Shown piece after piece: positions 4,615 through 19,260 of a stretch of DNA of 61,532 nucleotides. The stretch is taken from NCBI RefSeq assembly GCF_000310205.1, contig NZ_AMXE01000013.1, positions 1 to 61,532 of the forward strand, written 5' to 3'. Made by a program: the position numbers and the translations under genes. This DNA is from Thauera linaloolentis 47Lol = DSM 12138. Lineage in GTDB: Bacteria; Pseudomonadota; Gammaproteobacteria; Burkholderiales; Rhodocyclaceae. The notes beneath the pieces are model-generated. The model searched no databases. It saw only the letters and a list, made by a program, of their open reading frames with translations, and was not told where the DNA came from. How positions within the stretch are numbered: position 1 is the first letter of the stretch; each line of letters opens with the position of its first letter.

Positions 4615-7023
<2,409 letters not shown>

Positions 7024-7206
7024 TGGCGTTGAAGCGGCATCCGGAGGCGGAGCCGCTACGGCTGCGAAAAGGGGGCGATCTTACCCCGAGCGTGCAATCA
7101 GAGGCGAGCCGGTGACCAGGCGTGCGGGAACACGTCAACCAGGCGAGGGGCGCGGGCGGCGGGCAGGCTCATGTAAACGTCCTGGCCCATGGGATGGAAG
7201 GCGCGC

Positions 7207-8181
7207 TCACTCCGCCAGGCGTAGCTGGTGGACCAGTTCGGCCGTGCTGCCGATCGCCAGCTTGCGGTACACCGCCTGCATCTGGTTGCGCACCGTGGAC
7301 AGCGAGCGGTCGAGCTGGCGGGCGATCTCCTTCTGGCTCAGGCCCTTGGCGGCAAGGGCGGCGACCGCGCGTTCGCGTGGGCTGAGTGCGTCGGCCGGGC
7401 AGCGCGGCCGGGCGCGCAGGAACAGCAGGCCGTGCTCGCTGCGGGCGGTGATCACGATGTGCCGGCCGTCGTAGCGGGCTTCTCCGCGCTGGACGCGTTC
7501 CAGCACGGCGGCCGGCAGGTGCTGCCAGGACGGTGAGGTCCATTCTGCGCGCAGCATGTCCTCGAATGTGGGGTCGCGCTGGCAATAGGTACCGGCCGGG
7601 GTGCAGATGGCGTGGCCAGCCCCGGCCAGGTGTGTGGCGTACAGCGTGTGCCGATGCATGCCGTGGTTGATGAACAGCGCCTGAAGGACATGCGGCGAGA
7701 GCAGGGCGAGCAGCGCGCATTCCCGGTCGGTGCAGCGGGCCGACTCGTCCGCCCGGAACAGCGACAGCCAGTGAAAGAAGCCGGTGGAGGGGTTGCCGTC
7801 GGCGCTGATGAAGAAATTGGCCTGCTCGAAGCGGCGGCCGTACTCGCGCAGCGGTGCCTGCTCGCGTTTGCCGAACCAGCTTGGCGCATGGAAACCCCGC
7901 ACCCCCCGTGGATTGCGGGTGAGCTCGGCGGCCGCGGTGTCGAGATGGCGGATGGCCTGATAGCTCTCCAGCATCTCTTGTGGTTGCTCGTGCAGATGGA
8001 TGACCTCGATGTCCAGCCCCGATGCGGTCTGCGTACCGGCGCCCCACATGGCGGAATCGAAGGGCAGGGCCTGCTTCAGCAAGGCCAGGGTGGCATCCTG
8101 GAACTGATCTATCGGGTACGCGTGAGCCAGGCCGTACAGGCGCAGCAGCAGTACGCTCAACTCGGTCGACGAGGGGGGCAT
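7207..8181 (-). CDS. LuxR-family transcriptional regulator (LuxR solo)
   Basis: A 324-residue DNA-binding regulator. The C-terminal 60 residues form a LuxR/GerE helix-turn-helix (LSPRERAVAALAAKGLSQKEIARQLDRSLSTVRNQMQAVYRKL). The N-terminal 250 residues lack the Trp/Tyr/Asp pattern of acyl-homoserine-lactone pockets; they look like the GAF-like sensor of a larger LuxR class and hold no receiver Asp motif. No luxI-type gene is present. It heads a 10-kb island and is divergent from an Rhs-like gene; a perfect 20-bp palindrome lies in the region between them. Two related palindromes precede the other island operons, so this is the likely regulator of the island. Its ligand is unknown. Confidence 0.85.
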   Translation of the reverse strand: MPPSSTELSVLLLRLYGLAHAYPIDQFQDATLALLKQALPFDSAMWGAGTQTASGLDIEVIHLHEQPQEMLESYQAIRHLDTAAAELTRNPRGVRGFHAPSWFGKREQAPLREYGRRFEQANFFISADGNPSTGFFHWLSLFRADESARCTDRECALLALLSPHVLQALFINHGMHRHTLYATHLAGAGHAICTPAGTYCQRDPTFEDMLRAEWTSPSWQHLPAAVLERVQRGEARYDGRHIVITARSEHGLLFLRARPRCPADALSPRERAVAALAAKGLSQKEIARQLDRSLSTVRNQMQAVYRKLAIGSTAELVHQLRLAE

Positions 8182-8239
8182 GTCGCAAGGGCTTCCGTAT
8201 CGCTAGTGAGAATATTCTACACAGCTGCCGGAGGCTGCC

Positions 8240-8261
8240 GGCCGGCACTCCCGGGCCGGCC
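8240..8261. repeat. GC-rich inverted repeat upstream of the LuxR-type gene
   Basis: GGCCGGC and GCCGGCC form seven-base arms around an 8-nt loop, about 60-80 bases upstream of the regulator's start codon. It may be a leader hairpin or a protein-binding site; nothing decides between them. Confidence 0.35.
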
Positions 8262-8370
8262 GATGATTCAGCGGTGCAGCAGCAGGAAGAGCCGCAGCGC
8301 AAGCTGGCGGGGCAACAAGCTGGGCAGATCGATCGGGCAACTGCGTTTGAGCTGGGGAAGCCGACGCCCG

Positions 8371-8417
8371 AATGATGCATATGCATCATTGAGTGAGGTG
8401 GGTCAGTGCGACACAAT
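8371..8417 (+). promoter_or_regulatory. LuxR-box-like palindrome 1 with -10 element
   Basis: AATGATGCATATGCATCATT (8371-8390) is a perfect 20-bp palindrome, the length and symmetry of LuxR-type boxes. A -10-like CACAAT lies at 8412-8417, 21 bases after the box, so the box would be centred near -42, the class II activator position. The downstream gene starts at 8476. Two further copies of the motif, at 16188 and 17195, have the same arrangement. Binding by the adjacent LuxR-type protein is inferred. Confidence 0.75.
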
Positions 8418-8475
8418 CTGCCGGTGGTTTTGTCGATATCTCAGGATTTGTGCAAGCAGAAGGGAAACACACATC

Positions 8476-9156
8476 GTGAAACTGGAAAAGCAGGGATTCG
8501 CCGCGATACTGCTCATGCCTCTGGTGGCGATGGCCGGCGTCGCTTTGCAGAGCGGCGATGCGCTCCCCGTGCTGCATGCTGCTGGCGAACCGCGCCTGCG
8601 GGCGCAGACGTTCGTCCGGACGGAGGTGGAAGCGGTCACGGTGCCTGGTACCGGTACCGTGACCGTCGAGGAAGGGCGCAGCGGGCGGGTCATCTGCGAT
8701 GAACGAGGGCGCATCGTCCGCAAGATCGATGCGGCGGGCCATGTCACCGAACTGATCCATCATCCGCATACCGGCAAGCTCATCCTGATCTTAGATCAGC
8801 GTCTCGGCACGGCGCTTGTTTACCACTACGACGATGATGGCAAGCTGATTCGCGCGCAAGATGCGAACGGTCGCCAGTTCAGGTTCGACTATGGCAGGAC
8901 CGCCAGTGTCCAGCGCCTGGTCGTGACCGGCGGGGAAGGGGTACCGCGTCGCGAGCTTGCGTTCAAATATGGTCCTCACGGCAAGCCGGTGGAAATCCGG
9001 CTCGCGGGCGTGGGCAGGATCGACATGGAATATGACCGGGATGGCGAAATCAGTCGCGTCAGTTCGAGCAAGGGGGCCGAATTGACGCTCCAGGTCATGG
9101 AAACGTTCCGCCATTTCCTTGCCGTGGTGCGGGCTGCTCAAACAGGAATTGAATGA
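8476..9156 (+). CDS. Exported YD/Rhs-repeat-like protein
   Basis: A 226-residue protein with a signal-like N-terminus (MKLEKQGFAAILLMPLVAMAGVA) and two to three degenerate YD/Rhs-type repeats: ICDERGRIVRKIDAAGHVTEL, VYHYDDDGKLIRAQDANGRQF and MEYDRDGEISRVSSSKG. The GTG at 8476 is used because the signal-like segment begins there; an AGAAGGGA stretch lies about a dozen bases upstream. It is far shorter than Rhs/YD toxins, and I see no core PxxxxDPxG motif or C-terminal toxin, so it is more likely a small beta-rich secreted protein than an Rhs effector. It lies directly downstream of LuxR-box-like palindrome 1 and 39 bases before another exported-protein gene. Confidence 0.65.
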   Translation: MKLEKQGFAAILLMPLVAMAGVALQSGDALPVLHAAGEPRLRAQTFVRTEVEAVTVPGTGTVTVEEGRSGRVICDERGRIVRKIDAAGHVTELIHHPHTGKLILILDQRLGTALVYHYDDDGKLIRAQDANGRQFRFDYGRTASVQRLVVTGGEGVPRRELAFKYGPHGKPVEIRLAGVGRIDMEYDRDGEISRVSSSKGAELTLQVMETFRHFLAVVRAAQTGIE

Positions 9157-9195
9157 CGCCTGTCCTTGACGGCGCCTTGCTTCGCAGGAGACATC

Positions 9196-9516
9196 ATGTC
9201 GCTCATCCCGGTCAATCGTCTGTGCATGTTCATCCTGTTGCTTGGCATGATCTGCCCGGGCGTCGCCGATGCGCAATCCCGCTCGCAGTCGCTGTACGCT
9301 TCATGCATGAACGATGCGCGAAAATTGAACGCCGACTGCCGTAAGAGCAATACTTCGCGTGTGTGCAACAGCAACTACCGTCGCAACCAGGACACCTGCT
9401 GGAAATCGTTCATGAATCATGGCAGCAGGGATGCCTACTATGGCGGCAATCCGCCGCGCTACGAACCGGTGCCGATTCCGCGCCGACCGACCTACCTTCT
9501 GCCCGGCAGCCGGTGA
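9196..9516 (+). CDS. Small Cys-containing exported protein
   Basis: A 106-residue protein of unknown function. The ATG at 9196 follows AGGAG at a 5-base spacing. It gives a signal peptide (MSLIPVNRLCMFILLLGMICPGVADAQ) likely cut after ADA. The mature part is short and basic, with four cysteines (SCMNDARKLNADCRKSN, VCNSNYRRNQDTCWKSF) spaced like two helical CX9-10C hairpins, and a Tyr/Pro-rich tail. It is probably co-transcribed with the Rhs-like gene from box 1 and converges on the membrane-protein gene ending at 9531. Confidence 0.6.
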   Translation: MSLIPVNRLCMFILLLGMICPGVADAQSRSQSLYASCMNDARKLNADCRKSNTSRVCNSNYRRNQDTCWKSFMNHGSRDAYYGGNPPRYEPVPIPRRPTYLLPGSR

Positions 9517-9530
9517 TTCAGTCGAGTTCT

Positions 9531-10469
9531 TCACCGTTTCTGTCGACGCTTGAGGGCGGGGGGCCGGCTCAGCCAGGCCATCAGCAGCACCGGCCATTCC
9601 AGCCAGGCGTGGATGCCGGCGGCCACCGCGTACAACTGGCGTGCGCTGGCATGGTCGGCGGCGTAGTAGGCCGTCATCAACGCCGCTGCTGCCCACGTCG
9701 CCAGTTGCAAGCCGCGCGGCAGTACCGGCTGGCCGCTGCGCCGCTGCTCGGCACGGGGCAGCAGCACGATCACGCAGTAGTAATGCAGGCACTGCGCCAG
9801 CACAATCGCCGACAGCACTGCCGAATGCTGCACGCCGCCCCACTGCGGCGGCCATTGCGCCTCCAGCAGCGGCATCTGCATACCCAGCGCCGGGGGCAGG
9901 AACGCCCCGCTCCAGCCGCTGAACGCCACCAGCAGCGGCAGCAGAAACAGGCCGGACACCGCCCAGGCCAGGGCGCGGACGGCAGGGCTGCGCGGCTGTT
10001 CGCGGCGCATGTCCCACACCATCGCCAGCGGGGTGAAGTTGTGCAGCACGGCCAGCACCAGCAAGGCGTGCAGCACGTCGCCGCGCTCCAGCAGCAGCCA
10101 CACCGCCAGTGCCGCCGCCAGCCCGGCCAGCCGCACCCGCCACCCCGCGCCCGCTGGCGCAGCGGCCACGATCAGGCCCAGCGCCAGCAAGGACAGCAAA
10201 TCCACAATCTGCCCCAAGGTGGCCGAATAGGTATCCACCCACACCGCCCCCCGCACCACCGCCTGCGCCAGCAGCACCGCCCACAAGGCCAGCCACCACG
10301 CCCACGGCCAGCGCCCGGCATAGCGGCTGCGCAAAAAGCCCATCTCCCACACCACATGCGGCAGGCCGAACACGGCCAGCGCCGCCAGATACAGCGGCAA
10401 AGGCAGCCACAAAGCACCCAGCAGCATCGCGCCCACGGCCAGCACATGCCAAACGGCAGGCCGGGCCAT
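9531..10469 (-). CDS. Polytopic membrane protein with conserved-looking histidines
   Basis: About 312 residues with seven to nine hydrophobic segments. Histidines sit in or beside membrane segments: FGLPHVVWEMGF, LERGDVLHALLVLAVLHNF, QCLHYYCVIVLL and AGIHAWLEWPVLL. This pattern resembles membrane di-iron or carotenoid-oxygenase-like (Brp/Blh) proteins, but I cannot assign it to that family. The ATG at 10469 is the conservative start; in-frame GTG codons near 10505 overlap the preceding stop and would add about 12 hydrophobic residues. It is the last gene of the eight-gene minus-strand unit that follows palindrome 2 and pairs with the 105-residue membrane protein upstream. Confidence 0.6.
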   Translation of the reverse strand: MARPAVWHVLAVGAMLLGALWLPLPLYLAALAVFGLPHVVWEMGFLRSRYAGRWPWAWWLALWAVLLAQAVVRGAVWVDTYSATLGQIVDLLSLLALGLIVAAAPAGAGWRVRLAGLAAALAVWLLLERGDVLHALLVLAVLHNFTPLAMVWDMRREQPRSPAVRALAWAVSGLFLLPLLVAFSGWSGAFLPPALGMQMPLLEAQWPPQWGGVQHSAVLSAIVLAQCLHYYCVIVLLPRAEQRRSGQPVLPRGLQLATWAAAALMTAYYAADHASARQLYAVAAGIHAWLEWPVLLMAWLSRPPALKRRQKR

Positions 10470-10495
10470 GGCAACCCCAGCCGCCAGCGCCGCCG

Positions 10496-10813
10496 CTACC
10501 ACAGCCACCACCCCAGGCCCAGCGATGCCGCATTGGCCCACAGCGCCCACCCCAGCGCTCGCAGCCCGCCAACGCCCAGCCACCCGCGGTACCACGCCGC
10601 CTCCAGCAGCACCACAATCCCTTCGATCACCCACAGACCCACGCGGTACTGCGCCGGGGCCAGCAGCATGGCCACCGTCCAGGCTGCCGGGTGGGTCAGG
10701 CCATTGATGCCGATGGCCCCCAGCGCCACCCGCGCCGGGGCATGGCGGCGGGCCAGCAGCATCGCCGGGACCTCGCAGGCCAGGGTCACGCCAAAGGCTT
10801 GCCATTGTTCCAT
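10496..10813 (-). CDS. Small three-helix membrane protein
   Basis: A 105-residue integral membrane protein. It begins with MEQWQAFGVTLACEVPAMLL, has a central INGLTHPAAWTVAMLL segment, and a third helix VGLWVIEGIVVLLEAAWY. The pattern E...P, then N..THP..W, then E..VVL.EA..Y looks conserved and is familiar from small uncharacterised bacterial membrane proteins, but I can name no family or function. Its start is 9 bases after the 153-residue gene upstream, and the His-containing membrane protein follows directly, so the last two genes of the operon probably form a membrane pair. Confidence 0.6.
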   Translation of the reverse strand: MEQWQAFGVTLACEVPAMLLARRHAPARVALGAIGINGLTHPAAWTVAMLLAPAQYRVGLWVIEGIVVLLEAAWYRGWLGVGGLRALGWALWANAASLGLGWWLW

Positions 10814-10822
10814 CTGCGGGCC

Positions 10823-11284
10823 TCAGCGCGGCAGGGGAAAACGCGCTTGCAGCACATAGCGTGTAGGCGTGCCGGGCTCACTGCACAGGCGCACCAGGGC
10901 CATGAAGTCCAGCCGCCGCGCCGACCATTCATCCACCACCGCGCCCGACAGCACGGGCTGCCCGCCGGACAGCAAGGCAAAACAGCGGTCGATGGGCAAC
11001 GCAGCAGCATCCGGCAGCGCCCCGGCCTGGGTGAACGCGCCATCCGGCCAGTGCAGGGTGAATGCCGTCTCCACCACCCAGGCTTTCTGCGGGTCTGCCG
11101 GGTCAGGCCGGGCATCGCGCCCAAACGTATCGCGCCCATGCGCGTTCTCGCATTGGGACAGCACGCCGGGGCGGGCGGGGTGAAACAGCAGCAATTGCAG
11201 CGGCGGCGTCAGCACCTGGGCGCAGGCGGCGGGGGCGGCGCAGGCCAGGGCCAAGCCTGCAAGCACCATGTGCTTGCACCCCAT
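10823..11284 (-). CDS. Exported protein of unknown function (153 aa)
   Basis: It has a signal peptide (MGCKHMVLAGLALACAAPAACAQ), then a mature domain of about 130 residues with three cysteines (SQCENAHG, DRCFALL, RLCSEPG) and mixed beta character. The start ATG overlaps the stop of the upstream DUF1566 gene by one base (TGATG), so translation is probably coupled. I recognise no family. Position in the operon suggests a periplasmic partner of the membrane pair downstream or of the DUF1566 proteins upstream. Confidence 0.6.
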   Translation of the reverse strand: MGCKHMVLAGLALACAAPAACAQVLTPPLQLLLFHPARPGVLSQCENAHGRDTFGRDARPDPADPQKAWVVETAFTLHWPDGAFTQAGALPDAAALPIDRCFALLSGGQPVLSGAVVDEWSARRLDFMALVRLCSEPGTPTRYVLQARFPLPR

Positions 11285-12453
11285 CAGCGAACCAGCCGAA
11301 AGTTATGCCGCTGCTGCTTGGGCGCATTCACGCCAAGCTGGGCTTCTGGCACCACTTCCCCATTTTCCTGAACCCGCTGCATCCGGGCCATGTGTTCACT
11401 CAATACGGCGGCCCTGCCGTCACTGGATTGCGTCGCCGTCCAGATATAGCCGCCGGTCAAACCCTCAGGGAAATAACTGGCAGCCTCTTTCAATTCCGCC
11501 CTGTCGGGAACGCGCCAAGGCTGGCCGGTGCGGCGGGCCTCATTCATGGCGTGCACCATCGTTTCGTCCCACGTTTTCTCCCGATGATGACCTGAGCACC
11601 AGCGCCCTTCCCAAAATCCAAGGAAACTATTGCATACCTCCCAGATCAGGCCGGTTTTTCGATCTTTGATTTCACCCACCGTTTTATCGGGCCACTCGAA
11701 CCGCTGGTGAAATTCGCGCCAGGCTGGGAGTTCACTTTGCACCTTGTCATAAGCACGTCGTGCCAACTGATAATCCTCCGAGGCGGCATTTCTCTGCGTC
11801 TTCAGATAATGTTCCAGCCAGCGTACGGCCTCTTCGGCATCACCCATTTCTGTTAAAGCACGTCCTAAAGCATAGGACAAATCAGAAGCGCGATAGCCCA
11901 AAGCCCAGGCTTCCTCCAGGAGATGCACACTGGCAAGAAGTGAGAGGTCTTCCCGTTTTTTTGTCATTTCGATTTCGAACCGGTCTAACAGCAGCCCGAT
12001 CAGTCGTTGATGGTTGGCTGCATCAGCGGACGATGAAAACTTCAGCGGTGCGTCTGTGGGGGCGATATTGGGTTTGCCATAGGGTTTGGTCCAGCCCATT
12101 TTTTCTCTCTGCGCCAAGATTTCTTTATCGATGCGATCCGCCTGTTGCACGAGCTGTATGGCAGACCTTAATTCTTTCGTGCTTTCCAGCCTATCCCTGC
12201 TTTCCTGTCCCGCTTGTTCACGCCGCTCTGTATTGGCGCGGGCTGCCGAGGATTCAAGATCATCGTAATCCGCCCACGCAGCATCTTTCTCCGCCTGGGT
12301 GCTGGGAATCACGGATTCGGTTATCCTTCTTTCTTGCCGCTCGAACTCCTGTTGCTGGGCTGCGGACATCTGGCCAATTGCCGGCTGGGAAATACCCAGC
12401 ATCGCGGCTATGGCGCTGGCCAGTAAAAGGGCCTTTTTGATTCTTGATTTCAT
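11284..12453 (-). CDS. Exported DUF1566 (Lcl C-terminal-like) protein, paralogue A
   Basis: A 389-residue exported protein. The ATG at 12453 follows AAGGAG at a 5-base spacing and gives a signal peptide (MKSRIKKALLLASAIAAMLGISQPAIG). A helical, charged, TPR/Sel1-like middle follows (about residues 25-240; LLEEAWALGYRASDLSYALGRALTEMGDAEEAVRWLEHYL). The C-terminal part has the DUF1566 hallmarks: EIKDRKTGLIWEVC, KTWDETMVHAMNEA and WRVPDRAELKEA. It is similar in architecture, and in part in sequence, to the gene at 14628-15467 in the same operon. The encoding DNA seems visibly less GC-rich than the flagellar genes, which suggests acquisition. Confidence 0.7.
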   Translation of the reverse strand: MKSRIKKALLLASAIAAMLGISQPAIGQMSAAQQQEFERQERRITESVIPSTQAEKDAAWADYDDLESSAARANTERREQAGQESRDRLESTKELRSAIQLVQQADRIDKEILAQREKMGWTKPYGKPNIAPTDAPLKFSSSADAANHQRLIGLLLDRFEIEMTKKREDLSLLASVHLLEEAWALGYRASDLSYALGRALTEMGDAEEAVRWLEHYLKTQRNAASEDYQLARRAYDKVQSELPAWREFHQRFEWPDKTVGEIKDRKTGLIWEVCNSFLGFWEGRWCSGHHREKTWDETMVHAMNEARRTGQPWRVPDRAELKEAASYFPEGLTGGYIWTATQSSDGRAAVLSEHMARMQRVQENGEVVPEAQLGVNAPKQQRHNFRLVR

Positions 12454-12505
12454 ATTGACTCCTTGAATGTTGTAGTGATTTTTACGCGGTAATGGGCAAG
12501 GCACA

Positions 12506-13273
12506 TCAACACGCTGCCACTGCCAATGGCCGCACGGTAAAGCGGTAAACCGCCCCCCCGGCGTGGCGCACGGTGAATGTGTCGGCCCGTTCGCCGGCCC
12601 ACAGGTCTGCTGCGTTCAATTGCAGCAGCACGCGGGCGGGCGCATCGGTTGCTTGCGCCTGGGCGGAGATGCTGGCCACCGCTACCGGCCTGCCCGCCAT
12701 TGCCACCTGCCAGCCGTCGCCGGGCGTGCCAGGCAGGTTGAGGGTGAGGGTGTCGAATGGCGTCAGGGCAACGGGGTCGCTCTGCCGGGCATCGCTCCAC
12801 ACCCAGTCCTGCCCGCGCGGGGCAGGCGGGCGGGGATCGACCTGCACGCGCAGCAGTGCCTGTTCCTTGTCCACCGTCAGCATCAGATAGGCGGCCCCCG
12901 GCAGGCCAGCGCCAAAGTGCCGCCATTCAAGGTGGGCGGGGTAGGTGCCCGCGCTGATTTCTGCGGGGGCCTTGGCGCCGTTGTGGCGGCTTAGGTGCTG
13001 GTAACGCGCGGCATCCAGCGCCGCCACGGCATCGCTGGGCTGGTCGTTGGCATCCACCACCCGCAGCCTGGCGCGGCGCAGCACCAGTACGGAGAGCAGA
13101 TCGCCGGTTCGCAGGCTGACCTCTTGCGGCAAGCGCATCGGCGCTGCACTGAACTGCGCCAATACGGAGACCTGCTGGCGCTGGTCTTTGAGGCTGCAGG
13201 CCCAGGCGCTGGAAGCCGTCAGGCCGAGGGTCAGTGCCACCGCGCAGCATAAGGCGTGTCTGCTGATATCCAT
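12506..13273 (-). CDS. Exported beta-rich protein of unknown function
   Basis: A 255-residue product from the ATG at 13273, where a clear signal peptide begins (MDISRHALCCAVALTLGLTASSAWA); in-frame starts at 13318-13321 overlap the upstream stop and would add 15-16 residues. The mature protein has short beta-type stretches (LLSVLVLRRARLRVVDAND, AAYLMLTVDKEQALLRVQVDP, DTLTLNLPGTPGDGWQVAMAG, ARVLLQLNAADL, AVYRFTVRPLAVAAC), looking like two immunoglobulin-like or pre-peptidase-type beta domains. No catalytic motif is seen. It lies between two genes of the operon and may carry an adhesive or scaffold domain. Confidence 0.6.
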   Translation of the reverse strand: MDISRHALCCAVALTLGLTASSAWACSLKDQRQQVSVLAQFSAAPMRLPQEVSLRTGDLLSVLVLRRARLRVVDANDQPSDAVAALDAARYQHLSRHNGAKAPAEISAGTYPAHLEWRHFGAGLPGAAYLMLTVDKEQALLRVQVDPRPPAPRGQDWVWSDARQSDPVALTPFDTLTLNLPGTPGDGWQVAMAGRPVAVASISAQAQATDAPARVLLQLNAADLWAGERADTFTVRHAGGAVYRFTVRPLAVAAC

Positions 13274-13317
13274 TCCGGTTCGACGCGCCCCTGTCCCATC
13301 CATTGTGCCGAGCCGCA

Positions 13318-14631
13318 TCAATCCAGGAACACCGGGCGTTGCGGTGTCTTGGTGCGTTGCTGCTTCTGTTGCCTGAGCGCGGTGGCGGCATCATTTTGCG
13401 TGGGGGCGTTGGCCATGCGCTTTTGCACGCAGCTTTGTACTTCGACACCGGGCGTGGCACACCGCTGCGCTGCCGTGGCACGGCAGGTGGCGGCGGTTTC
13501 TTCGGCCTCGAACAAGGGCTGGCATTGCCGCGCACGCTCGCCCCAGCGCGCATCCCAGGCGGTCTGGCGTTCTTTTAGCTCGCGGCTGATGCGCTCTTCT
13601 GCTTTCTGCTGGCATGCCCTGTCACATCCTGCGGCCGTCAGGTGCAGTCCCCGGACCGGACGCTGGGGAATGCCCGTGCAAGACGCGCTGGAGGGCAGCC
13701 CCGGCGGCATGGCGCAGGCCTTGCGCACGCAGGCGTCGGCCTTGTTCTGCGCGGCGTTGGCTTCCCGCTCGCAGCTTGCCTGGGCTTCGGCGCGAAAAGC
13801 AGCGGTCATCTGTGCATGCTGGCGGGCCGTATTCATGCGGTCTTGTGCTTCCTCAAGATAATCCGTCCGCGTGGGGGGCGCCTTGGATTTGGGCTTGGCA
13901 CTGTCTGGTTTGCCCGGGTCTTCACGGGGGCAGAAAGCTTCGCGCCCGCCTTGTTCACAGTGCTTGCGGATGGCCGTTTCCAGGTTGCCGATGCTGGCGC
14001 GGGTGCCGGGGCATACCTCCAGCCGCTCCAGCACCACGCCCTTGCGTATGATGTCCTTGGCCTCGGCCGCGGGCGCGTAGATGCGGTGCTTGGCGTCACA
14101 GCGGCTGTGCCAGTTCTGCGGCCTGCGCGTGTCGGCAATCAGGAAGGCATCCCAATCAGGGCTGCCCGCCACATTGAACGATACCTTGCCATCTGGTCGG
14201 GTGGGCGCGCCGGTATCGAAATGCAGGGTCAGATTCTTTGCGCCCTTGATGTGGGCCAGCCCTTCCAGCGTCAGCTCGCTGCCTCGCGCGGCCCGCGCCA
14301 GCGCCGGGGGCAGGCTGGCTACCGGGTAGCTGCGCGGTTTTGCGCCCAGGCCATCGTCGGCCAGCAGGCGCACCGAGGTCAGAGACCATACCAGGCCGTA
14401 ATTGCCCACCGGCTCGCCCATCAGCGCAGAGAGCTTCCAGCGCACCTCCACCTTGCCGCAGATTTCGGGAACTACGGCGGATGCTGTCTTGAAGCAGTTG
14501 TCGTTCAGCGCGTTGGCCGGGCGCAATACGCCTTGCCCGCCCGGTTCAGCCGATGCGCACAGGGCGCTGATACCCCACAGCAGCCAGGCCCAGTGCTTGT
14601 TCGCGGTTTTCATGGGATACGATGGGTTCAT
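13318..14631 (-). CDS. Exported Cys-rich protein of unknown function
   Basis: About 437 residues. The ATG at 14631 overlaps the upstream stop (ATGA), implying coupled translation; an ATG at 14613 starts right at the signal-like segment (MKTANKHWAWLLWGISALCASA). The N-terminal half is beta-rich and globular (ICGKVEVRWKLSAL, NYGLVWSLTSVRLL). The C-terminal half is a Cys-rich helical region (AAFRAEAQASCEREANAAQNKADACVRKAC, CDRACQQKAEERIS, QCQPLFEAEETAATC) like paired CX(n)C helical hairpins. I recognise no family; it is likely periplasmic and disulfide-bonded. Confidence 0.6.
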   Translation of the reverse strand: MNPSYPMKTANKHWAWLLWGISALCASAEPGGQGVLRPANALNDNCFKTASAVVPEICGKVEVRWKLSALMGEPVGNYGLVWSLTSVRLLADDGLGAKPRSYPVASLPPALARAARGSELTLEGLAHIKGAKNLTLHFDTGAPTRPDGKVSFNVAGSPDWDAFLIADTRRPQNWHSRCDAKHRIYAPAAEAKDIIRKGVVLERLEVCPGTRASIGNLETAIRKHCEQGGREAFCPREDPGKPDSAKPKSKAPPTRTDYLEEAQDRMNTARQHAQMTAAFRAEAQASCEREANAAQNKADACVRKACAMPPGLPSSASCTGIPQRPVRGLHLTAAGCDRACQQKAEERISRELKERQTAWDARWGERARQCQPLFEAEETAATCRATAAQRCATPGVEVQSCVQKRMANAPTQNDAATALRQQKQQRTKTPQRPVFLD

Positions 14632-15467
14632 TCGGAGCGGACAAAGCGGAAATACCATTCACTATCTCGATCGAAGGAATCACTGCTTTGCTGGTTAAAC
14701 TTGACGCCGTACTCACTCACGACATACGCCTTCATGTAGTAATCGTTTCTTCCGACCCAGTACTCGCGTTTTTCATTGGTCCAGATCCAAGCGCCGGGAT
14801 TTCCCGCGATCAGTTGTTCGGGCAAATGAGTGGCCAAGGCCTCCAATTCCCCCTTCGTCGGCAAGCGCCAGCGCTTGCCGGTGCGATTGGACAATCTGTC
14901 CGCTTCTGCAACGGATTCAGGCCAAGACTTCGTCGTACCAGGTCCGGAACATTCCCATCCGGTCCAGTTATCTCTGCTGCTGCAGGCTTGCCAGATCAGA
15001 CCTGTCACGCGGTCTTTGATTTCCCCGAAAAATTCCCCGCGATAGTCGGAATGCCACTCCAGGCGATTCCCAAAAGATCTTGTTATGCTCTTCAAGGCCT
15101 GTGCCCGAGTCTCTGCCGTGCTGTAGGCCGACAGCGCTTCTTTGTAGTACTTGGCCTTGGTGCCTTGCTCTTTCAGGTAGTCTCCCAATGCCTCCAGGGA
15201 GGTTCTGATGGCGCCGGCGCGCAGGGCCGCTATACCCAGGTGATAGGAAAAATTGGTGGGCATGGGAGCGCCTGTTTCGCGGGCGTTTTCCAGGTCGTAG
15301 GTGATGTCGATGTAGTGCTGTCTGTCGCCTCTCTTTTTTTCCATCGCGGCAGCCGCTTTTTGCAGCAGGCGGTCGGCCTCCAGTTGCGGCGGCAGTTGCG
15401 CCTGCACACCCGTTGTGGGTATGGCCAGCACGGCCCATACCGACAGGTTCAGAATCTTTGAACGCAT
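14628..15467 (-). CDS. Exported DUF1566 protein, paralogue B
   Basis: A 279-residue exported protein with signal peptide MRSKILNLSVWAVLAIPTTGVQA, then a helical repeat-like middle and a C-terminal DUF1566-type domain: GEIKDRVTGLIWQAC, KSWPESVAEADRL and WRLPTKGELEALA. The shared block GEIKDR.TGLIW..C...W....C.G and W.VP/WRLP..EL make it a clear paralogue of the gene at 11284-12453. An AAGGATT Shine-Dalgarno-like stretch precedes the ATG. It is the second gene of the operon, 20 bases after the lipoprotein gene, and its stop overlaps the next start. Confidence 0.7.
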   Translation of the reverse strand: MRSKILNLSVWAVLAIPTTGVQAQLPPQLEADRLLQKAAAAMEKKRGDRQHYIDITYDLENARETGAPMPTNFSYHLGIAALRAGAIRTSLEALGDYLKEQGTKAKYYKEALSAYSTAETRAQALKSITRSFGNRLEWHSDYRGEFFGEIKDRVTGLIWQACSSRDNWTGWECSGPGTTKSWPESVAEADRLSNRTGKRWRLPTKGELEALATHLPEQLIAGNPGAWIWTNEKREYWVGRNDYYMKAYVVSEYGVKFNQQSSDSFDRDSEWYFRFVRSE

Positions 15468-15487
15468 GGAATCAATCCTTTGATGTG

Positions 15488-16081
15488 TTAATGCGAAGTA
15501 AGGCTATCCTGCGCGACGATTTGCAGCACGGTCACGTCCAGCACGATGGGGCCGCCGTTCCACTTCACCGGGCCGTACCCCGGGCCAAAGGAAAGGTTCA
15601 CCATCTGCCCTTCTTCCACATCCCCGGAATAGAAGATGACGCGCCCGGGGTTGGATGCGTCCGTGGGGGAGACGGTGGCTTCCGGTCCTTTGTCCGTGGC
15701 GATGATGGCGATCTCGCCTTTGACTTTGCCGGTCTTGCGGACATGGTCAGCCCACGCACGCTTGATGGGATCTTCCGTGATGTGGGAGAACGAGGCAGAT
15801 TTCAGGTAGATGGAGAGGGTGTCGCCTTCCTGGAACTTGCCTTTGAGTTTGGAGCGTTGCTTAGGATTCTGGTATTTATCCTCCCAGTCGGCACGCCAGG
15901 TTTCAGGGAGCGATTCCTTTCCAGGGGGCGGTGTCTTGGCGCCGATAAAACGGTAGCCCCCCGTGCCTTCATAGAGTTGCGGGGCGGCGCTGCACCCCCC
16001 GAGCACCAGCGCGGCGACCAGCCCGGCCCAGTTCAGCGCGCGCCGTGGATGAGCGCGATGGATCGTCTTGGAAATGTTCAT
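15488..16081 (-). CDS. Lipoprotein, first gene of the island operon
   Basis: A 197-residue protein with a lipobox (LVLGGC, acylated Cys near residue 30) after a basic N-terminus and hydrophobic segment. The mature part starts SAAPQLYEGTGGYRFIGAKTPPPG and contains a domain of charged beta strands (GDTLSIYLKSASFSHITEDPIKRAWADHVRKTGKVKGEIAII..., then GPIVLDVTVLQIVAQD). No family is recognised. As first gene of the eight-gene unit it sits 116 bases from the centre of palindrome 2 and may anchor the exported proteins to the outer membrane. Confidence 0.65.
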   Translation of the reverse strand: MNISKTIHRAHPRRALNWAGLVAALVLGGCSAAPQLYEGTGGYRFIGAKTPPPGKESLPETWRADWEDKYQNPKQRSKLKGKFQEGDTLSIYLKSASFSHITEDPIKRAWADHVRKTGKVKGEIAIIATDKGPEATVSPTDASNPGRVIFYSGDVEEGQMVNLSFGPGYGPVKWNGGPIVLDVTVLQIVAQDSLTSH

Positions 16082-16158
16082 GTTTTGACGATGGCCGGTT
16101 GTTCAGGGGGGCTTCAGGGTCATCGATGAAGTGGCGGCGGGGCCGCTGAGGCGCTGCC

Positions 16159-16207
16159 ATTGTGGCGGCACGGGGGAGGCGTCGTTCAATGATGCAGATG
16201 CACCATT
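16159..16207 (-). promoter_or_regulatory. LuxR-box-like palindrome 2 with -10 element
   Basis: AATGATGCAGATGCACCATT (16188-16207) matches box 1 at 18 of 20 positions and is a near-palindrome. Reading on the minus strand, CACAAT (16164-16159) follows after a 23-base gap, like the element after box 1. The unit downstream starts with the lipoprotein gene at 16081. Confidence 0.7.
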
Positions 16208-16272
16208 GCAGCGCCAGCGTTTACCGGGGCGGATGCGGCGGCAATGCGTTCCGTGTGCCGCCCGCGGCATCG

Positions 16273-16932
16273 CTACTGCCGCAGTTTTTCCAGCCAGGAG
16301 GCATTGCGGTAGCGGCGCTCGACGGCTTCCGGGGCCATGCACAGGATGGCCTGTCGTGTGGCGACCCGGCGGCCCTGGTAATAAAACCCTTCGCGCTGCG
16401 TTTCCTCACGGCAGATGCCCTCGTGCTGCTCGGGCCTGCCGTCGTAGCTCATCGCCACGGTGCAGGCCTGGCCGATGGATTTGCCCTGGCAGAAACGATC
16501 CGCCGGGGTCTCGGGGAGCGGCGCGCAGTTCCACGGGCGGGAGGCTTCGGCGTCGGCGCAGAGGGCGGCTTCGGCGACGAAACCGTCTTTGGGCAGGCTG
16601 CGCTCGATGAGCGCCAGGCCGGTGCGCTTGCAATACAGGTCGATAGTGAAGGTGGCGCGGTTGATTTCGTTGTCGCAGACGCCTTCGCCGCCGCCGGCCA
16701 AGCGGCTGCCGAGGATGGCGCAGGCGTCGCCGCGAAACTTGCCGGCGCAGAACTGGTCGCTGCGGTCGAAGGCATTGCGGTTCCTTTCGAGACGCTTGAT
16801 GGCTGCTTCCGCCGGGGGCGGCAGTAGATCGGCCCAGGCGAGGCCGTAGTTCAGCGACACGGCAAGGCAGGCCGCGACGTGCGTCCGGTGCCGGAGAAAA
16901 CGGGCAGAAGGGTAAATTCTGGAAAAAGCCAC
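16273..16932 (-). CDS. Exported Cys-rich protein of unknown function (219 aa)
   Basis: The GTG at 16932 follows GAGG and gives a signal-like N-terminus (...THVAACLAVSLNYGLAWA). The mature part is Cys-rich, with at least eight cysteines in blocks that look repeated: DQFCAGKFRGDACAILGS...GVCDNEIN and DRFCQGKSIGQACTVAMS...GICREET. Each block reads FC.GK..G.AC followed by G.C..E, suggesting an internally duplicated disulfide-rich domain. No family recognised. It is preceded by a 40-residue exported peptide ORF and by LuxR-box-like palindrome 3. Confidence 0.65.
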   Translation of the reverse strand: MAFSRIYPSARFLRHRTHVAACLAVSLNYGLAWADLLPPPAEAAIKRLERNRNAFDRSDQFCAGKFRGDACAILGSRLAGGGEGVCDNEINRATFTIDLYCKRTGLALIERSLPKDGFVAEAALCADAEASRPWNCAPLPETPADRFCQGKSIGQACTVAMSYDGRPEQHEGICREETQREGFYYQGRRVATRQAILCMAPEAVERRYRNASWLEKLRQ

Positions 16933-16939
16933 GCGTGCC

Positions 16940-17062
16940 TCACGACCCCGCTAGCCGGCAACGCGCGATTTCCAGTTCGTCGGGCGAAGGCAGTTCGAGC
17001 GCGAAACCGGAGGCAGGCAGGAACAGGGCGGAGAGGGCAACAGCGGGGGCGGTGGCTTTCAA
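16940..17062 (-). CDS. Putative 40-residue exported peptide (TTG start)
   Basis: A short ORF not usually called by gene finders. TTG at 17062 preceded by GAGGCG starts MKATAPAVALSALFLPASGFA, a compact signal peptide, followed by a 19-residue tail LELPSPDELEIARCRLAGS with one cysteine. It ends 7 bases before the next gene, and its stop overlaps that gene's Shine-Dalgarno. It sits 142 bases from the centre of palindrome 3, like the first genes after boxes 1 and 2. It might be a secreted signal or a leader peptide, or be fortuitous. Confidence 0.45.
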   Translation of the reverse strand: MKATAPAVALSALFLPASGFALELPSPDELEIARCRLAGS

Positions 17063-17167
17063 ATTCGCCTCGACGGTAGATGCAAAACGGTACGGGGTGA
17101 CGCCGTGCCGGCAGCCGCTGCAAGGGCCGATTCCCTTGATGCGGAGAGCTGCCGGGAGCGCCGTACC

Positions 17168-17214
17168 ATTGTTACCTACGGCTGTTCGCCGCCGAATAGT
17201 GCGGATGCACTATT
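17168..17214 (-). promoter_or_regulatory. LuxR-box-like palindrome 3 with -10 element
   Basis: AATAGTGCGGATGCACTATT (17195-17214) has perfect 8-base arms AATAGTGC/GCACTATT. On the minus strand AACAAT (17173-17168) follows after 21 bases, the same spacing as after box 1. It lies between the parE stop and the 40-residue peptide ORF. Outer bases, TGC/GCA core and spacing are shared with boxes 1 and 2. Confidence 0.72.
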
Positions 17215-17271
17215 CCCGGGAGGGCGGCAATGTGCTGGCGTGGGGCGCGCCAGCGTGGTGTTCGAGCCGGC

Positions 17272-19260
<1,989 letters not shown>

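Follow-up and report, generated by a model that had tools for sequence, protein, structure and literature searches.

A candidate LuxR-type regulator–operator pair and its island of predicted exported and membrane proteins between parE and parC in Thauera linaloolentis

Results

The gap between parE and parC in Thauera linaloolentis 47Lol = DSM 12138 is filled by an island of about 10 kb (7023-17272) that carries a LuxR-type regulator gene, three 20-bp palindromic dyads of one consensus (the boxes), and a set of genes most of whose products resemble no family. All coordinates refer to the window, which is the whole stretch of 61,532 nucleotides analysed here (contig NZ_AMXE01000013.1, positions 1 to 61,532). 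We consider it likely that the regulator is a local activator of three island promoters with poor −35 elements, which serve genes for exported and membrane proteins. That the box goes with this family of regulators is well supported by sequence comparison, with independent support from the regulator's relatives, and we treat the two as a putative regulator–operator pair.

Three dyads and their downstream elements

The consensus AATRRTGC-N4-GCAYYATT has three exact matches in the window and no others at up to three mismatches. Box 1 (8371-8390, + strand, AATGATGCATATGCATCATT) is a perfect dyad that pairs at 10/10 positions, and box 2 (16188-16207, − strand, AATGGTGCATCTGCATCATT) and box 3 (17195-17214, − strand, AATAGTGCATCCGCACTATT) each pair at 8/10; the 8-base arms are perfect in box 3 and contain one mispair in box 2. 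Each box is followed on its own strand by a −10-like element, namely CACAAT at 8412-8417 (+), 21 bases 3' of box 1, CACAAT at 16159-16164 (−), 23 bases 3' of box 2, and AACAAT at 17168-17173 (−), 21 bases 3' of box 3. The chance of meeting MACAAT at +20 to +24, in either direction, from a random position in the window is 0.0016. If the −10 hexamer is assumed to start at −12, the box centres fall at about −43 to −46, which matches class II activation, with the dyad over the −35 region and the −10-like element downstream at positions predicted from the letters. An initial annotation of this DNA had described these dyads, the following (C/A)ACAAT at 21-23 bases, the class II position and one box for each island unit, and all four descriptions held; each box points at one of three units.

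The same annotation had called the motif a LuxR box. This name fits insofar as its core recurs upstream of relatives of the regulator (see below) and fails insofar as direct reading of the boxes finds no CT-N12-AG, so that they are not classical lux boxes. We also rejected two other roles for the dyads: intrinsic terminators, on inspection, because the A+T-rich arms stand upstream of genes, and recombination sites, an inference from the island open reading frames (ORFs), among which no recombinase was seen.

The genome of the strain (4,199,939 bases in 220 contigs) contains 45 sites with up to three mismatches to the consensus, of which three have none, none has one, three have two and 39 have three; a reversed control pattern gave 18 sites in all. 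The only sites with zero or one mismatch in 4.2 Mb are the three island boxes. Because the genome has no further sites of this quality, we dismissed the idea that a global regulator acts through the boxes. MACAAT at 20-24 bases was found at 0 of the 11 sites examined among the 42 outside the island (12 loci, two of which show one site). The motif with up to one mismatch was absent from 28 other genomes of the genus, and among 297 genomes of the family the exact motif occurred three times in this genome and once in a single other one.

A scan of the genome contig collection returned 76 stretches with one match each to the motif plus ATTGT. Their G+C content exceeded 0.45 in only 11, none held a relative of an island protein at E 1e-3, and most of them are taken as chance. 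Two Saccharibacteria contigs (L131, L134) share AATAGTGC-TAGC-GCAC(C/T)ATT with ATTGT 22 bases off, possibly an unrelated conserved element.

The box core beside relatives of the regulator

Relatives of the N-terminal part of the regulator were present in 33 of the 297 family genomes, its own included. We scanned 33 regulator genes from 31 genomes, comprising 29 of the other 32 genomes of the family and two genomes of other families (G041, G060); the weakest relatives (G179, G084, G198) and the island's own gene were left out, and nine start coordinates are approximate. Of the 33, 18 have a perfect TGCA-NN-TGCA either in the 300 bp upstream or in the first 30 bases of the gene; upstream regions shuffled in two-base blocks predict 0.32 perfect cores per 33. 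At GerE-type regulators of other groups the perfect core was found at 0 of 23, in a longer stretch (25 loci, 23 of which were read). All but one of the 18 cores are found no more than 63 bases ahead of the start used or 8 bases past it, and they come from four genera (g43, g55, g73, g84). The exception (L041) is 285 bases away, has one of five further flanking pairs and is probably a chance match; the remaining 17 keep three to five of the five further flanking pairs in 15 cases and two of five in two. For the relative in G179, which is outside the 33, a perfect core stands 87 bases ahead of the first codon aligned.

The presence of the core goes along with a residue of the recognition helix. 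The helix motif TVR-X could be read in 31 of the 33 members; X is N, T or S in all 16 box-bearing members, and all eight members with H, F or Y are without a perfect core. The island regulator itself has TVR-N.

A search for repeated dyads in 15 loci of regulator relatives returned G+C-rich pairs, none of them box-like. Some relatives adjoin genes that look catabolic by eye. In G154 (L064 1255-3272) two regulators of the group stand in tandem, with one perfect core before the first gene.

Box-plus-element promoters in other lineages

The combination of box and downstream element recurs beyond the island. In G302, whose regulator is about 30% identical, the neighbouring PEP-CTERM gene is preceded by a box with one mismatch and by CAGACT at 21 bases. 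In G179 three boxes are followed at 20 bases by CATACT, CATACT and CATGCT, and two of them precede TonB-receptor-like genes, one (L244:7783) confirmed by Pfam and the other (in L245) judged by its near-identical start; a fourth site has, by eye, no such element at that spacing. Two Acidiferrobacteraceae metagenome-assembled genomes carry, in orthologous places, an exact box followed at 21 bases by CACAAT (L095 6037-6083, L126 322-368). The box and CACAAT are kept between these two and the intervening bases differ; a glycosyltransferase gene follows in L095, and no relative of the regulator was found within the 8-kb loci.

Across the nine promoters collected, the best −35 hexamer matches TTGACA at 3-4 of 6 positions and the −10 element matches its consensus at 3-4 of 6. 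As background, a −10-like element (4/6) turns up 20-23 bases away, in one direction or the other, at a rate of 0.03 in the window, 0.06 in L244 and 0.12 in L095; single sites therefore weigh little, and it is the set that counts.

A second class of dyad, AATAGTCC-N4-GGACTATT with mismatches, was seen in two loci rich in PEP-CTERM genes, at 8365 and 10989 of L068 and at 7433, 11434, 13550, 16489 and 18385 of L069. It has the geometry of the box with TCC for TGC, and upstream of L068 8307 and L069 11315 it runs into a −35-like TTGAC.

The regulator and its signal

The regulator (P0001, 324 aa, 7207-8181, − strand) appears to consist of a ligand-domain-like part (about 1-180), a second domain (about 185-260) and a C-terminal GerE helix-turn-helix (HTH, 265-318). 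The GerE assignment is above the cut-off (PF00196, E 1.3e-12), and PF00196 was found in all 24 members of the alignment A1. The autoinducer-binding family PF03472 was absent among the 16 families that match P0001 up to E 0.1 and was not among 25 of the 26 families matched by the 24 A1 members at E 0.01. In the model of the N-terminal domain, the predicted fold is that of LuxR-type ligand domains, and the closest folds are the ligand domains of LasR, CepR2 and CviR. P0001 is best described as a GerE-type regulator that lacks the quorum-sensing LuxR domain by sequence and that, as modelled, fits it by fold. At the level of sequence it does not register as a LuxR of the acyl-homoserine lactone (AHL) type.

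Six residues of TraR contact the AHL, W57, Y61, D70, P71, W85 and G113, as listed in PMC4338825. In the family of the island regulator D81 is nearly invariant and might correspond to TraR D70. In line with the initial annotation, no clear luxI was found: a search of the genome with PF00765 gave two matches, both on other contigs, and only one of them over the cut-off. The match below it is an OlsB-like acyltransferase, and the other is a 290-aa GNAT/FeeM-like ORF (27.4 bits, cut-off 24; L204 1009-1881, − strand, contig C9). The FeeM-like GNAT protein might supply an acyl signal other than an AHL.

The island and its setting

The parE gene is present in 27 of 29 genomes of the genus, this one included (E 1e-150). 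In all 20 regions fetched from the 26 others, parE and parC are adjacent, and the distance between their tblastn ends ranges from 35 bases to about 3.1 kb. None of these 20 regions matched any of 12 island queries at E 1e-4, and the two re-assigned membrane proteins described below also had no match there. The content of the gap differs between species and includes, by eye, VapBC-like pairs and a cation-efflux protein (L170-L189). Because of this variation, the parE–parC gap looks like an insertion hotspot in the genus. G+C content at third codon positions exceeds that at second positions in all 13 island ORFs.

Cargo genes

Box 1 points at an RHS/YD-repeat protein of 226 aa (8476-9156, +; RHS_repeat 2.3e-8, YD repeat 5.3e-8) with a signal-like N-terminus by eye, followed by a small protein of 106 aa (9196-9516, +) with a signal-like N-terminus, several Cys and no family. 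In Rhs/YD toxin proteins a long YD shell is joined to a toxin domain at the C-terminus. The 226-aa protein matched only the RHS/YD-repeat families, with no toxin domain among its matches, and does not fit this definition.

The genes after box 2 are all on the − strand. The first encodes a lipoprotein of 197 aa with the lipobox LGGC by eye (15488-16081). It is followed by an Lcl_C-domain protein of 279 aa (14628-15467; Lcl_C 3.8e-12), a Cys-rich protein of 431 aa (13318-14613), a protein of 255 aa (12506-13273), a second Lcl_C-domain protein of 389 aa (11284-12453; Lcl_C 1.5e-9) and a protein of 153 aa (10823-11284), all five with signal-like N-termini; the Cys-rich and 255-aa proteins belong to no family and the 153-aa protein to no Pfam family. 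The Lcl_C paralogues share 35.7% identity over 199 columns. An ORF of 424 aa (9531-10805) that ends the series reads better as two genes, one for a membrane protein of 105 aa with the motif NGLTHPAAW (10496-10813) and one for a polytopic membrane protein of 312 aa with a re-assigned start (9531-10469), both classed by eye. After box 3, also on the − strand, the first ORF considered has 40 codons, a TTG start and a signal-like N-terminus (16940-17062), and it precedes the gene of a 219-aa protein with a signal-like N-terminus and, by eye, two Cys-containing repeats (16273-16932).

Inspection of the translations indicates that every product except the regulator has a signal-like start, in one case with a lipobox, or is a membrane protein; the earlier description of the cargo as exported was largely borne out. 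Apart from the RHS/YD repeats of the first gene and Lcl_C in the two paralogues, no cargo protein matched a Pfam family over the cut-off. Four joined cargo proteins, compared with 399 genomes at the level of the order, had one relative beyond their own genome: G449 encodes a 38% relative of the 16273 protein. The two membrane proteins, compared with 369 genomes at the level of the class, had three weak matches beyond their own genome: by eye the match in G785 falls in an antiporter-like ORF and that in G960 is antisense to another ORF, and that in G836 gave no match when the fetched locus was re-examined. No plasmid relatives were found for P0006 and P0009, and weak matches numbered three for P0002 and one for P0010. 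Relatives of P0007 in 60 other genomes match the Lcl_C part only, and no solved structure related to P0007 was found by sequence. For the 16273 protein, the AlphaFold model (predicted local distance difference test score 50.6) was too poor for use.

In G449 the 16273 relative is immediately followed by a relative of the 10496 protein (L194 9376-10515). The 10496 protein and this relative are identical at 24/39 positions in the BLAST piece, and the alignment score is 13 standard deviations above shuffled sequences. The adjacency in G449 of one gene from the box 2 unit and one from the box 3 unit argues that the two units work together. Within 20 kb around this pair we found no relative of the regulator at E <0.2 and no box with up to two mismatches. 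One box-like site with three mismatches was seen where the membrane-protein gene begins (L194 10125).

Most of the cargo is without family and has almost no relatives in the genomes searched. The initial annotation had proposed an undescribed system, and this applies to the cargo only, and to it only in that sense. The most economical guess is that the cargo forms an inducible cell-surface or secreted assembly comprising the lipoprotein, the Lcl_C and Cys-rich proteins and the two membrane proteins.

Discussion

In the mechanism that we propose, the regulator would bind the three 20-bp dyads through their core, RTGC-N4-GCAY, probably as a dimer. Each dyad would overlap its promoter at the upstream edge; the promoter has a poor −35, and its −10-like MACAAT follows 21-23 bases downstream of the dyad. 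From this class II position the bound regulator would activate RNA polymerase. Three units, whose extents we infer from gene order, would be switched on together: the YD-repeat protein with the small, presumably exported protein; the lipoprotein with the two Lcl_C proteins, further putative exported proteins and the two membrane proteins; and the signal-like mini-ORF with the predicted exported Cys-repeat protein. A small molecule bound at the LuxR-fold N-terminal domain, or at the second domain, would act as the trigger, rather than a self-made AHL.

Several observations weigh against this reading. Box 3 differs from the TGCA-NN-TGCA core at one base, and for boxes 1 and 2 the best −35 hexamer matches at 4/6 positions, which leaves room for basal transcription and repression. 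The 18 of 33 cores are not mutually independent, and the association of helix residue and box, with G302 counted as box-bearing, has a Fisher p of 0.0008 by gene and 0.06 by genus. Seven members with N have no upstream core, one of them (G302) with a box at the next gene, and the relative nearest in sequence (G062, 32%) has an H helix and no perfect upstream core. No relatives of the cargo were found in the loci around regulator relatives, and the link between regulator and cargo therefore rests on position. The looser pattern TNRTGCANNTGCAYNA is not exclusive to genomes with a regulator relative: it has 71 matches in 35 such genomes (reversed control 18) and 47 in 45 congeneric genomes in which no relative was detected (reversed control 9). 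It also has three matches in the genome of the strain although box 3 cannot match, so that at least one lies outside the boxes. The looser core is no marker of the regulator. The initial annotation had named conservation of the motif without the regulator as a point against itself, and this is partly what we found, for the looser core in the congeneric genomes and for the exact box with CACAAT in the two Acidiferrobacteraceae loci.

The last of these points would suit a different arrangement, in which the boxes are bound by some other regulator, encoded elsewhere in the genome, and the island LuxR-type gene is a bystander. A 373-aa protein between two of the G179 boxes, with a LuxR-like C-terminus by eye and no Pfam match at E 0.01, would also be in keeping with it. 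However, the exact boxes of this genome are confined to the island and the core stands upstream of this regulator's relatives and not of the other GerE-type regulators read, and we regard a bystander as distinctly improbable. The same low probability attaches in our judgement to a classical LuxR solo that eavesdrops on the AHLs of neighbours, for which the modelled likeness of the N-terminal domain to LasR, CepR2 and CviR speaks and which the missing PF03472 match does not favor.

Repression by the same regulator deserves somewhat more weight, and is still unlikely. The dyad over the −35 edge would block polymerase until a ligand releases the regulator. In boxes 1 and 2 GA follows the terminal TT, which creates −35-like TTGAGT (spacer 17) and TTGAAC (spacer 19), and at the relatives' own genes the core sits no farther than 63 bases ahead of the start used or 8 bases past it, with nine starts approximate, a location that would suit autorepression. 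On the other hand, the nine target promoters are poor in both −35 and −10, and their spacing, 20-23 bases, is the one that class II activation requires. Finally, palindromes arising by chance and having no function are scarcely credible. In 100 shuffles of the window, matches with up to three mismatches averaged 0.92 and reached three or more in 8; this control counts inexact matches, whereas the real three are exact, lie in one island and share a downstream element. The core is also kept upstream of regulator relatives, and the box with its −10 element is conserved between two Acidiferrobacteraceae.

Beyond local activation in the island, a broader reading seems to us evenly balanced between right and wrong. 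A LuxR-type subfamily with a GAF/LuxR-fold ligand domain, in some members joined by a second domain, may have its own operator class, RTGCA-NN-TGCAY, read through N, T or S in the recognition helix, with members carrying H, F or Y using other sites. It may have been recruited across lineages to local regulons of envelope or exported proteins, here the three-promoter island of nearly orphan genes and elsewhere PEP-CTERM and TonB-receptor-like genes.

A palindrome spotted by eye becomes a testable regulator–operator pair with a proposed specificity residue, and the operator gives a route to the target genes of this group of LuxR-type regulators. The function of the cargo becomes approachable because about a dozen mostly exported proteins with hardly any relatives would be under one switch, and the route to it leads through the inducer first and then the exported products. 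The analysis also marks parE–parC as a probable insertion hotspot of the genus.

In class II LuxR-type promoters the lux box lies near −42.5. The island promoters resemble them in the dyad centre at about −43 to −46, over the −35, and in the weak −10, and differ in having RTGC-N4-GCAY where those have CT-N12-AG. The operator sequence was not found in the literature searched, at title level for the motif strings. TeiR is a sensor-domain LuxR-type regulator of a catabolic locus, and P0001 can be likened to it by general layout, a sensor part plus a LuxR HTH. Lcl_C (PF07603) is known from the Legionella collagen-like protein; two island proteins likewise have a C-terminal Lcl_C, but no collagen-like part was seen in them, and one has weak TPR-like matches upstream of Lcl_C.

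By analogy, the island would work in the manner of a LuxR solo that controls a local regulon. According to PMC4338825, the lux box is CT-N12-AG, and there are palindromes of other groups of solos that lack it. Solos share with the island a one-component design, a LuxR-type ligand fold with a GerE HTH, the lack (for the island, as far as the PF00765 matches show) of a clear luxI, and a 20-bp dyad before the −10 elements of neighbouring genes. The island differs from them in the missing PF03472, the extra domain before the HTH and the other half-site, and in that the solos act on one neighbour, whereas the island regulator would serve three promoters.

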